A stretch of 64,000 bases of DNA, taken from positions 112,182-176,181 of IMG/VR virus record IMGVR_UViG_3300043449_002450, one strand, 5' to 3'. The notes beneath the pieces are model-generated. The model was not told where the DNA came from and ran no database searches. It saw only the letters and a list, made by a program, of their open reading frames with translations. Positions within the stretch are counted from its first letter, which is position 1. Each line of letters begins with the position of its first letter. Below, one piece after another: positions 13,953 through 64,000 of this stretch. The position numbers and the translations under genes are program-made. This DNA is from a virus.

Positions 13953-14402
13953 ATGGATAGAATGATGATTAGGCGCATGGTTCTGAAAGAGATGCATGAT
14001 CACATGGCGCATGCACATCACAAGCACCGCCACCATGATGAAGAACACGATGATCATGAGGGGCGCGTCTTTCACCACAACGGAGCTGAGGCTGAGAGTG
14101 ACATGATTCACTCCAATCTCTGGACTCTCAAGACACAGGCTTGTGATCTCTACGATATGATCGGAGATAGAGACGATCTTCCAGAGTGGGTCCAGGAGAA
14201 AATAGCTGTTGCTGGATCGATGCTCGATTCAGTCTACGACTATCTTCACTATGAGTATCATGGCGAGGAAGAAGATAGACACGTTCACAGTGATAGAATT
14301 GCTTCTTTTGAGACAGGACACAACTTTGCTTCTGATGCTGATGTTTATGTCGCTCATTTAAATGAAAAGGCGTCGCGGCGCCTTCGCAGAAGAAGAGCCT
14401 GA
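13953..14402 (+). CDS. Histidine-rich protein with a candidate capsid-targeting N-terminus
   Basis: A 149-aa protein that I do not recognise. It begins MDRMMIRRMVLKE, an amphipathic stretch ending in L-x-E at residues 11-13. This matches the N-terminal peptide shared by about 18 other proteins here. The next 30 residues are extremely His/Asp/Glu-rich (repeated HH and DH), a likely metal-binding segment. The central part is helical with acidic residues, and the C-terminus is Arg-rich (ASRRLRRRRA), suitable for DNA binding. The combination of metal-binding and DNA-binding ends would suit a protein packaged with the genome. ATG at 13953 is chosen because the upstream TTG lies inside a hairpin. 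Confidence 0.6.
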   Translation: MDRMMIRRMVLKEMHDHMAHAHHKHRHHDEEHDDHEGRVFHHNGAEAESDMIHSNLWTLKTQACDLYDMIGDRDDLPEWVQEKIAVAGSMLDSVYDYLHYEYHGEEEDRHVHSDRIASFETGHNFASDADVYVAHLNEKASRRLRRRRA

Positions 14403-14438
14403 ATGTGAATCCAGCCCACGGTCGTGGGTGTAAAATAA

Positions 14439-14492
14439 GGCCACGGTGGCTATGATGTGAGCATGAAAGTTCTCATTACTGGCCACCGTGGC
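14439..14492 (+). repeat. Inverted repeat flanking promoter and start of the first epimerase gene
   Basis: Bases 14440-14450 (GCCACGGTGGC) are fully complementary to 14482-14492, which encode the start of the GHRGF glycine-loop motif. The spacer contains TATGAT and the ATG. A transcript reading through from upstream could fold to trap the start codon, whereas one starting at the local promoter could not. Each arm is itself nearly palindromic, so a protein operator is also possible. Confidence 0.6.
14451..14456 (+). promoter_or_regulatory. -10 box of a likely leaderless promoter (first epimerase)
   Basis: TATGAT lies exactly 6 nt (GTGAGC) before the ATG at 14463. No Shine-Dalgarno sequence is present. 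The arrangement matches that at 32011. Confidence 0.5.
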
Positions 14493-15443
14493 TTTATAGC
14501 GTCTAATCTTCCAAGAGCACTCGAGGATCTGGGTCATGAGGTCGTCGCTCCTCATGATATCCACCTGGACTTCAAAATCAAGTCAGGCGAGCATTGCGTC
14601 CACAGGAACTCTGAGGATCATTGGGCGCGTGAGCTTGACTATCACGGCGTCGACGTTGTCATACACAACGCTGCGCTTGTTGGAACAGATGTTGTCGCGC
14701 TTAATCCCTCTGAGGCAACACTTTCTAACGTGACCGGGACATACAACATCTGTCGAGCTGCTGAAAAATCTGGTGCAGCTTTGCTCTATCTGGGCACAAC
14801 TGTGATCTATGACACAGATCGCTATCAAGATGTTGAGATCACTGAGCGATCCTCGCACGGCCCGCAGACGCTTTACGGTTCTCTGAAACTGGCAGGCGAG
14901 CACATCGTCCGCGCACACAGCACGAGGTGGTCGATCGTCCGCCCGCTCTTCTGCTACGGCGGCGTAGGTGACAACAACTCACTGATCGCGAAGGGGTTCT
15001 TTGGTGCTGCCAGCGGCAAGGAGAAGATCGACATGTTCCTCGATCCGAAGAAGATCAAGGACTACATGCGCGTGGAGGACTTCTGCGATGCTGTGGCAAC
15101 TGTCGTGGACAAGGAGCTCTGGAACGATGACTGGAACGTCGCAGCGGAGACGCCTGAGAACACGGGCAAGATCGTCGAGATGATGAGCGAGATCTCGTGC
15201 AAGGATCTAAAGGGTGTGGTAAAATGGCACCCAGGAACCGACTACTTGGGTAACCATCGTCTAAGCTCACAGAAGTTCAGGGATGCATCTGGTTGGTCTC
15301 CAAAGTTCGACCTATATGGTGGCTTGAAAAAGTCATGGAATGACATCCAGCGCAATCTGGGTTCAACGGATTACAATCCCCTCCGCTACCTGGAAGATGC
15401 CAAGAAGCGCGGCCTTGATCTCACACAATTCTTCAACCGGTGA
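14463..15443 (+). CDS. NAD-dependent epimerase/dehydratase
   Basis: A 326-aa extended short-chain dehydrogenase. The Rossmann nucleotide loop is GHRGFIASNL near the N-terminus and the active site is Y-G-S-L-K (YxxxK), preceded by YLGTTVIYD. The closest general class is sugar-nucleotide epimerases and dehydratases, or aldehyde-type reductases. It could make a sugar for phage DNA or host envelope modification. A second such enzyme is at 19937, and sugar-nucleotide functions are at 47038 and 47529. ATG at 14463 is preferred over GTG at 14457 because of the promoter spacing. The substrate is not evident. Confidence 0.82.
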   Translation: MKVLITGHRGFIASNLPRALEDLGHEVVAPHDIHLDFKIKSGEHCVHRNSEDHWARELDYHGVDVVIHNAALVGTDVVALNPSEATLSNVTGTYNICRAAEKSGAALLYLGTTVIYDTDRYQDVEITERSSHGPQTLYGSLKLAGEHIVRAHSTRWSIVRPLFCYGGVGDNNSLIAKGFFGAASGKEKIDMFLDPKKIKDYMRVEDFCDAVATVVDKELWNDDWNVAAETPENTGKIVEMMSEISCKDLKGVVKWHPGTDYLGNHRLSSQKFRDASGWSPKFDLYGGLKKSWNDIQRNLGSTDYNPLRYLEDAKKRGLDLTQFFNR

Positions 15444-62289: not shown

Positions 62290-62401
62290 ACATTTTGAAT
62301 TAGCGGGCGATAATAGCCATGTAATCTGCGGGACGAGTGTGCATAGTCAGTGGTGTGACCGCGCGGAGACCACGCTCTCCATTTGCATAATAGTTAGATC
62401 T
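62290..62401 (+). promoter_or_regulatory. Intergenic region with candidate late-promoter motif
   Basis: A 112-bp non-coding gap. CATAATAGTTAGATCTATG (62385-62404) joins a CATAAT box and the AATAGTTAG motif directly to the start of the ADP-ribosyltransferase gene, as at 57819-57834. No ribosome-binding site is visible. Confidence 0.4.
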
Positions 62402-63487
62402 ATGAAAGAAATGCTGCTTCGAAAACTGATCCGTGAAACTCTTCTGCTCGAAGCAAAGTTTCAGTATCCAGGTGGTGACTCCATCCACGGAGTTTTTGCC
62501 TTTTGGCGCTTCTTTCTCCGGAGTGACTTCGAAGAGATCAATGGTCGGTGGCCGACATATGGAGAATATGTCGATATCTTTCAGGGCGCGATTCCAGGAT
62601 TTGTCTACACCTACGGCAACAACGAGACACCTGACACACCGTTCGAGAGTGTCTTTGCACGCGAGCCAGGTGGCAAGTTCCTGGATAGAATCTATAAGCA
62701 GCTTGTGGCATTCATTGGAGACGATGACAGAAAGGACCTCAAGGTCTGCAGGGCGATCGAGCGTGTCGGAAATGCTCTGAGCCGTGAGGCAAAGGAGACA
62801 CGCAAGCGCAAGCGAGATGCTGAGGCGGCGGCTGAGCAGCTGAGAGCAGCGGAATACGCTGCTAGTTATGAGCCTACCGCGCCCGAAGGTGCACCTCTAG
62901 GAAAATACGCATTCTCACCCCAGCGGCAAGGTTCAATGCGCCCGCCACCTCCAGAGAGAAACCTGCCAGTGGAATCAGCGCTCCTCCGCTCCATCATCAG
63001 CCACTTCGAGGGACAAAGGCCTCTCACCAGACAGCAGTCCGATCTCGTCATGAGCTTTATTAGAGACGGCCTCTACACTGACGTCTTCAGAGAGCCACCG
63101 CCCGGGACCTTCTACCGCGGAATGCTCCTCGCGATCGAGGATCTCACAGCGATGGGCATTAGGATTCCTAGAATGGAGATAGGCGAAACGCTGGATATCG
63201 AGGACAATTTTACGATGATGCCACAAGGCAACAGGTTCTCTTCCTCCTGGTCATCAGACATCGAAGTCGCCAATAGATTCTCGCGTGGTAACCTGGGTCA
63301 ATCCGCTCGTGATGTCTACTCGGTCGTCTTTGCAGCAGGATCACAAGAAAATCCGGGTAAGTTCATTGACGCTGATGGGTTGTATGACTTAGACATGGAA
63401 GAAGGCGATTATTTTGCTGCAGAGAAAGAAGTCATTGGACTTGGACCCATCAATGCAAACGGGGTCAGAATTGTGAGGCTAGCATGA
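62402..63487 (+). CDS. R-S-E type ADP-ribosyltransferase-like protein with targeting N-terminus
   Basis: A 361-aa protein. Residues 1-17 (MKEMLLRKLIRETLLLE) are the shared peptide with L-L-E at the end. A variable N-terminal domain and an Arg/Ala-rich helix (ETRKRKRDAEAAAEQLRAAE, near 135) follow. The C-terminal third has the ART signature in order: Arg239 in TFYRGML, the Ser block FSSSWSSDIEVANRF (279-293), and Glu341-x-Glu343 in AAEKEVIG. T4 Alt, also head-packaged with an N-terminal capsid-targeting sequence, is the precedent: it modifies host RNA polymerase. This protein likely acts in the same way on an unknown target. Confidence 0.76.
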   Translation: MKEMLLRKLIRETLLLEAKFQYPGGDSIHGVFAFWRFFLRSDFEEINGRWPTYGEYVDIFQGAIPGFVYTYGNNETPDTPFESVFAREPGGKFLDRIYKQLVAFIGDDDRKDLKVCRAIERVGNALSREAKETRKRKRDAEAAAEQLRAAEYAASYEPTAPEGAPLGKYAFSPQRQGSMRPPPPERNLPVESALLRSIISHFEGQRPLTRQQSDLVMSFIRDGLYTDVFREPPPGTFYRGMLLAIEDLTAMGIRIPRMEIGETLDIEDNFTMMPQGNRFSSSWSSDIEVANRFSRGNLGQSARDVYSVVFAAGSQENPGKFIDADGLYDLDMEEGDYFAAEKEVIGLGPINANGVRIVRLA

Positions 63488-64000
63488 AACTAACAGAATC
63501 TACACTTCGATCACTAATACGTGAGGTCCTCACAGAATCGTCAGCTGCGCGACGCGCGCAGACCCGAGCCATCACGGGTGACCGCAACACGAAGCTGGAG
63601 ATCTGGCAGCTTGCTGACTCGCTGATCACGACGCCGCCGAGCGCACACTTCACGATGACGTCCATACAGAAGGTGGGCATTAATCCTGGGTCACGGTATA
63701 ACACACCGCTGGCCCTCTACGCGTATCCTGTCACCGATCACACCGTCGACCAGCTGATGGGAGTGTTTGAGCCTGATGCTGCGGCTCGAGCTAATGCTGG
63801 TGAAACCATCACAGCGGCAAAAGCTGCGTCTGTCGCAAAGAACAAGGCGGAGTTCAATAAGGGCGTTGAAGATGACATCAAATTAATTTCGCAGTTCACG
63901 CTAAACGAGCTATATCACCAGCTTCCATTTGTCGAGACCGCGCCCTACATCAACTTCTTCAGGCTGCAGCCCGACGGTGTCTTCTACACTTCGATCGGGA
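63484..64000 (+). CDS. Virion-type protein with targeting N-terminus (cut by window end)
   Basis: A partial gene of at least 172 codons, open at the window end. It overlaps the previous stop by 4 nt (ATGA). It begins MKLTESTLRSLIREVLTE, with L-T-E at 16-18, nearly identical to the peptide of the protein at 57832. After an Arg/Ala stretch it contains VGINPGSRYNTPLALYAYPV, a motif I associate vaguely with phage proteins of unknown function. The rest is helical. The function is not known. Confidence 0.7.
   Translation, partial: MKLTESTLRSLIREVLTESSAARRAQTRAITGDRNTKLEIWQLADSLITTPPSAHFTMTSIQKVGINPGSRYNTPLALYAYPVTDHTVDQLMGVFEPDAAARANAGETITAAKAASVAKNKAEFNKGVEDDIKLISQFTLNELYHQLPFVETAPYINFFRLQPDGVFYTSIG

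Follow-up and report, generated by a model that had tools for sequence, protein, structure and literature searches.

That proteins may be addressed to a phage head, or processed in it, by way of their N-termini is already known in general from T4, from P1 DarB and from SPN3US and other phiKZ-type phages. The internal proteins IPI–IPIII and Alt of T4 each begin with a short peptide that has [L/I]-x-E at its end and stands before otherwise unrelated sequences, the prohead protease gp21 being of the S77 type. A T4 peptide of this kind suffices for packaging and processing (PMC9026906). The Dar system of P1 likewise uses an N-terminal stretch as a capsid-targeting sequence, and a reporter is directed into the head by no more than the N-terminal 30 residues of DarB (PMC9024508). 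In SPN3US and phiKZ-type phages many inner head proteins are processed by the prohead protease and are thought to be ejected (PMC5694885).

Here we describe a peptide of this general type in an aquatic T4-like phage, in which one short helix heads about 18 otherwise unrelated proteins. The DNA analysed (the window, 64,000 bases) corresponds to bases 112182–176181 of a 176181-base virus record. As in T4, a short N-terminal peptide ending in [L/I]-x-E precedes unrelated proteins, an S77 protease accompanies a gp23-type head, and the cargo N-termini resemble those of core proteins. In contrast, the T4 peptide (MKTYQEFIAE) is unlike the tag of this clade, only a handful of genes are tagged in T4 as against up to 47 per genome here, and no protein in 59 kb of T4 sequence that included IPI–IPIII reached 8 bits under the tag model described below, so that sequence similarity was not detected at this cut-off. 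P1, as described, has no [LI]xE tag shared across many proteins, nor has a separate scaffold been identified in it. The phiKZ-type phages share with this clade a variety of different head proteins with protease-cut propeptides (SPN3US gp47, gp53 and gp54), but those propeptides are mostly >100 residues long, compared with ~12–25 residues here, and the SPN3US sites, with SQE, ALE and TFE among them, do not follow one [LI]xE pattern. Three things appear to be new, namely a tag distinct from those known, the resemblance that it bears to a core protein, and how widely it is used; the open-access literature, searched also with the peptide strings, held no earlier description of this tag (subscription papers and preprints lay outside the search). 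From the sequence comparisons below, we think it quite probable that the shared peptide is a cleavable capsid-targeting sequence, T4-like in its working.

A shared peptide at the N-termini of unrelated proteins

In total, 181 genes were called over the entire record with a simple codon-usage caller, because of which some start-site error is expected; at 60736 the caller picked a longer start, and the tag starts at an inner ATG. The tag consensus is L-R-x-[LIFY]-[IV]-[RK]-x-x-[LI]-x-E. When this record was scored with a held-out tag model, for which nine other genomes had served as the training set, 19 N-termini reached ≥8 bits, compared with 1.4 expected from internal windows; for ten genomes combined, the held-out counts were 141 and 15.2, respectively. 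The core pattern without its final [LI]xE occurred at 10 N-termini of the record (internal windows of these proteins predict 0.48), and an unsupervised 13-residue motif sought in residues 2–41 of all proteins attained a log-likelihood of 334, versus 217–263 in internal, C-terminal and shuffled controls. As in T4-type capsid-targeting sequences, a short peptide is common to unrelated proteins. Shuffled sequences, internal windows, a scan with the reversed peptide and random viral contigs served as controls, and on these a composition artefact was rejected.

An earlier sequence-only reading of the window had proposed that about 19 genes share the tag. All 19 N-termini were confirmed as it had written them and the family is real and far above chance, but the list required both pruning and extension (Table 1). 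Eleven members were strong (p ≤ 0.005 under the held-out model) and three borderline, while the tag was unsupported for the genes at 23732 (p = 0.87), 27864 (p = 0.035), 30258 (p = 0.57, already marked as a weak case in that reading), 33817 (p = 0.16) and 50625 (SGNH-M23, p = 0.14), which have merely a short [LI]xE. A search of the whole record, as the reading had suggested, added seven tagged genes and two prohead genes outside the window. One further gene, at record position 103211, reached 8 bits only when the model included this record and was left out of the count. Among the borderline members, 13953 has a tagged homologue in the relative G006, and homologues of 24901 in relatives have tag-like N-termini. 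The Fe/Mn superoxide dismutase (SOD) at 23037 (Sod_Fe_C, E = 3e-17) is aligned by PDB superoxide dismutases only from residues 38–50 on, the tag being an extension; the enzyme is kept in five relatives (E = 7e-41 to 4e-78), with a variable N-terminus and no clear tag common to these homologues.

Table 1. Tagged genes and the prohead protease. Positions refer to the window unless marked "record"; single numbers are start positions.
Position	Strand	Length	N-terminus and other features	Score	Class
28950..29837	+	295 aa	MNALRTYVRAVLSE-A (predicted cut after E14)	17.4 bits, p 0.0002	strong
40099..40989	-	296 aa	MQLRTLRHFIRETVQSSGAINE-F; [LI]xE at E12 and E22	14.6 bits, p 0.0013	strong
41048..43477	+	809 aa	MKVLISEVALRRAIAKMLLE-A	9.4 bits, p 0.005	strong
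43474..45822	+	782 aa	MINPHLESLQELRGIIRSLLLE-G	14.6 bits, p 0.0013	strong
53166..54326	+	386 aa	MPKTLRNFIRAVLAE-N	18.1 bits	strong
54316..54954	+	212 aa	MEDDLLREAIRALLQE-K	12.6 bits, p 0.0025	strong
55981..57465	+	494 aa	MIDVIRHAIREMLLQE-R, then YHGS domain, then leucine-rich repeats	18.8 bits	strong
57832..59751	+	639 aa	MLLTESQLRSIISALILE-G; LRR-variant repeats	16.7 bits	strong
60736..62289	+	517 aa	MNLTTLRHLIREMILIE-K	21.0 bits from ATG at 60736	strong
62402..63487	+	361 aa	MKEMLLRKLIRETLLLE-A; C-terminal domain with YRG / SSW / E-x-E motifs	24.0 bits	strong
63484..63999	+	172 aa up to record end	MKLTESTLRSLIREVLTE-S	26.2 bits, genome's best	strong
13953..14402	+	149 aa	MDRMMIRRMVLKE-M	6.6 bits, p 0.013	borderline
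23037..23732	+		Fe/Mn superoxide dismutase with N-terminal extension; [LI]xE at E13 and E25	6.0 bits, p 0.017	borderline
24901..27003	+	700 aa	MNVIVKKHALQQLISTLAE-E	7.8 bits, p 0.008	borderline
record 2809					new
record 3486					new
record 5389					new
record 6929					new
record 8002					new
record 8439					new
record 74688					new
record 83862			head gene matching tag model		new
record 84410			head gene matching tag model		new
record 83345-83764			S77 (gp21-type) protease		

Shared N-termini could also be a by-product of gene duplication or shuffling, or of a DNA-level start signal, with no targeting role; tagged genes are often clustered, and some paralogue arrays occur in the relative G001. 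However, the same codon stands behind identical tag residues in only 27–40% of cases, and therefore the peptide is conserved and the DNA is not, which argues against recent duplication or copying and against a DNA-level signal as the origin of the tag. In addition, most of the tagged proteins in this record are not related to one another, as had been claimed of the cargo. The by-product explanation is largely refuted, and we regard it as very improbable.

Twelve tRNA genes in three clusters (window 52714–60642) lie among the tagged genes; ipI of T4 is likewise near T4 tRNA genes.

Head genes and the predicted cleavage site

The head genes of the record (TerL, gp20 portal, S77 protease, gp23) stand in T4 order, with the protease between the T4-type portal and gp23 genes. 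A prohead protease, whose absence had been named beforehand as grounds for abandoning the capsid-targeting interpretation, is clearly recognised (PF03420, E = 9.7e-27), and so, as with T4-type capsid-targeting sequences, the cognate S77 protease is found in the same genome. The gene after the protease has, in 20 loci, an N-terminus of the tag type (x4-LKxIVKECLVEILxEG), and its C-terminal W..LAF is similar to RWxxLAG, with which the scaffold family ends. A model built from this gene alone reached ≥10 bits at the N-termini of 9 of 1977 other proteins, compared with 0 of 5241 internal windows. The second gene after the protease begins LTPxLLRRIVLEE and in relatives has a basic C-terminal part. 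By position and motifs, we infer that both downstream genes encode prohead core proteins.

The helix might instead dock to a target outside the head, such as a membrane, a factor of the phage RNA polymerase or some other structure made by the phage, its likeness to the core gene then being coincidental or due to a shared partner. Amphipathic helices do serve many uses, and many of the small tagged proteins are without known function. Yet the same helix opens a conserved head-cluster gene next to the protease, the following head gene is similar, and [LI]xE keeps a register (see below); we consider docking outside the head improbable.

The [LI]xE motif by itself is common, 14–17% of comparable stretches having one by chance. 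When cores were found with a pattern that leaves [LI]xE out, the Glu of the motif fell 10 or 11 residues downstream of the core's leading L for 47 of the 104 cores at N-termini and for 12 of the 189 internal ones (Fisher 7e-15); because of this fixed register at N-termini, [LI]xE goes beyond mere composition. The chance rate of 14–17% applies to the short [LI]xE of the five unsupported genes. Within the tag span, 18 of the 20 tagged genes of this record have [LI]xE. The predicted cuts in strong members fall at residues 14–22, the exact Glu being ambiguous because I-R-E inside the helix also fits [LI]xE. T4 gp23 is shortened by 65 residues (PMC9026906). All 26 gp23 homologues of this clade have E as residue 61 and either L or I as residue 59, a position that matches FLTE65 of T4 gp23. 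This invariant [LI]xE at the T4 cut position argues that the protease of the clade cuts after [LI]xE.

Regular spacing of L/I and E in a helix could itself generate [LI]xE matches, and the I-R-E of the core alone fits the motif; the helix might then be a permanent head-binding element that is not generally cleaved. In T4, a tag variant with Asp at position 10 is indeed packaged without processing (PMC9026906). However, an in-register [LI]xE follows 45% of the cores at N-termini but only 6% of equally helical internal cores, and gp23 of the clade retains [LI]xE where T4 gp23 is known to be cut, so permanent binding is in our view unlikely. The capsid-targeting interpretation, which the sequence-only reading had put forward, is supported by the S77 protease, the tag-type core gene next to it, the [LI]xE of gp23 and the presence of S77 in tagged contigs.

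Several other features of head genes were observed. Between the protease and the core gene, many relatives (e.g. L052, L080 and L075) have a small gene (~115–195 aa) with an N-terminus like MSxxxPxxGxxxxxEYQxSGxPFVTSS, possibly for a head decoration protein. The S77 protease frame of G001 is 563 aa long (L115:12364-14055, minus strand) and has a ~350-residue insert at GEC/DHPD, which starts CVPPGTEILT, ends VVWTGN ahead of Cys and looks like an intein in a prohead protease. Two adjacent gp23 copies are present in one phage contig (G013, the contig of L169; 176509–180120).

Distribution of the tag and its cargo

Viral contigs were scanned blind at the DNA level with a degenerate pattern for K-I-T-x3-L-R-x-I-I-R-E that included no start codon. 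Among the matches listed (at least 152), 142 of 152 were directly after a start codon; a reversed-peptide control scan of viral contigs gave one match. Of the further genes in tagged contigs, 314 of 1251 were tagged (25 expected), compared with 4 of 685 genes in random viral contigs (5.3 expected). Among the matches listed, tagged contigs of ≥95 kb had S77 in 15 of 16 and gp23 in 13 of 16 cases, and random viral contigs of ≥50 kb had S77 in 1 of 13; because the size cut-offs differ and both traits mark one clade, the link between tag and S77 is an association, not proof, and is not independent evidence of function. The start-anchored pattern matched only two contigs in a prokaryote genome collection; each belongs to a metagenome bin in which an S77 gene is also present, and one of the two, at 101,404 bases, is exactly as long as the only large tagged viral contig that lacks S77. 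With the 20-residue consensus tag, tblastn returned no match in named phages, so short a peptide being probably below its reach. Tag counts, from a model that includes the genomes counted, were 47 in G001, 27 in G004, 20 in this record, 15 in G006, 13 in G002 and 2–8 in others; some close relatives with S77 and gp23 have few tags (G003, 3; RM378, 2), a point against the capsid-targeting reading. Among cultured relatives, Immutovirus vB_FspM_immuto, which grows on Flavobacterium sp. LMO8, has 8 candidates and Microcystis phage Mel-JY01 has 7.

The cargo types named in the sequence-only reading fared unevenly. Leucine-rich repeats in the 55981 protein were confirmed (PDB match, E = 4e-17) and the SOD is sound, although its tag is borderline; the 54316 protein has a weak alpha/beta-hydrolase resemblance (Pfam Abhydrolase, E = 0.012, under cut-off), and the SGNH-M23 protein is unsupported as a tagged member. 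The repeats of the 57832 protein matched LRV_2 slightly under cut-off (E = 5e-6), and a Pfam search with the 28950 protein gave nothing over cut-off. Members of the 62402 family share the tag and the C-terminal domain but may have or lack a ~135-residue insert; in 62402 itself, residues 3–21 were modelled as a helix at low confidence. Foldseek leads for 62402 include many ADP-ribosyltransferases, none below E = 0.18. Because 62402 had no significant Pfam or PHROGs match and the N-terminal domain of 55981 was poorly modelled (pLDDT mostly under 50), we describe both proteins as ADP-ribosyltransferase-like at the level of motifs only. Relatives carry the tag in front of zeta-toxin-like P-loop proteins or kinases, a poly(A) polymerase head domain, a cytidylyltransferase-like protein, a weak GNAT match and LRR proteins.

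A tagged paralogue array in G001 (181405–187190 and both contig ends), composed of YHGT-domain plus LRR proteins and YRG/SSW-domain proteins, suggests rapid expansion of one cargo family and also backs 55981 as a tagged protein.

A possible route into the head and its implications

Core binding, packaging, cleavage and injection of the tagged proteins are steps that we infer from sequence. While the prohead core assembles, the amphipathic helix of each cargo protein would take its place there as a mimic of the helix with which the phage's own core protein (the product of the gene directly downstream of the S77 protease gene) begins. The shell would then close around the core-bound cargo, and the protease would cut after [L/I]-x-E, where the helix ends or close by. 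The cargo, now free within the head, would be delivered into the host along with the DNA.

By such a route, a large enzyme repertoire, open to change, probably enters the heads of these viruses for delivery with the DNA. With little more than even confidence, we extend this to the clade: the head-address helix, derived from the core protein, may be a general loading signal across these aquatic T4-like phages, and a sizeable share of their accessory genes (as many as 47 in a single genome) may encode interchangeable head-delivered effectors that enter the host before phage gene expression. The tag is a candidate protein-loading signal outside enteric phages, and recognition of cargo by the prohead core becomes testable. 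If the reading is true, the tag would provide a sequence rule by which phage proteins that accompany the DNA into the cell could be predicted. The phage group concerned is amply represented in aquatic metagenomes, and most of its gene products are without known function. Since the tagged proteins would act before new phage synthesis, the list of tagged genes would be a source of candidate counter-defence and takeover enzymes.
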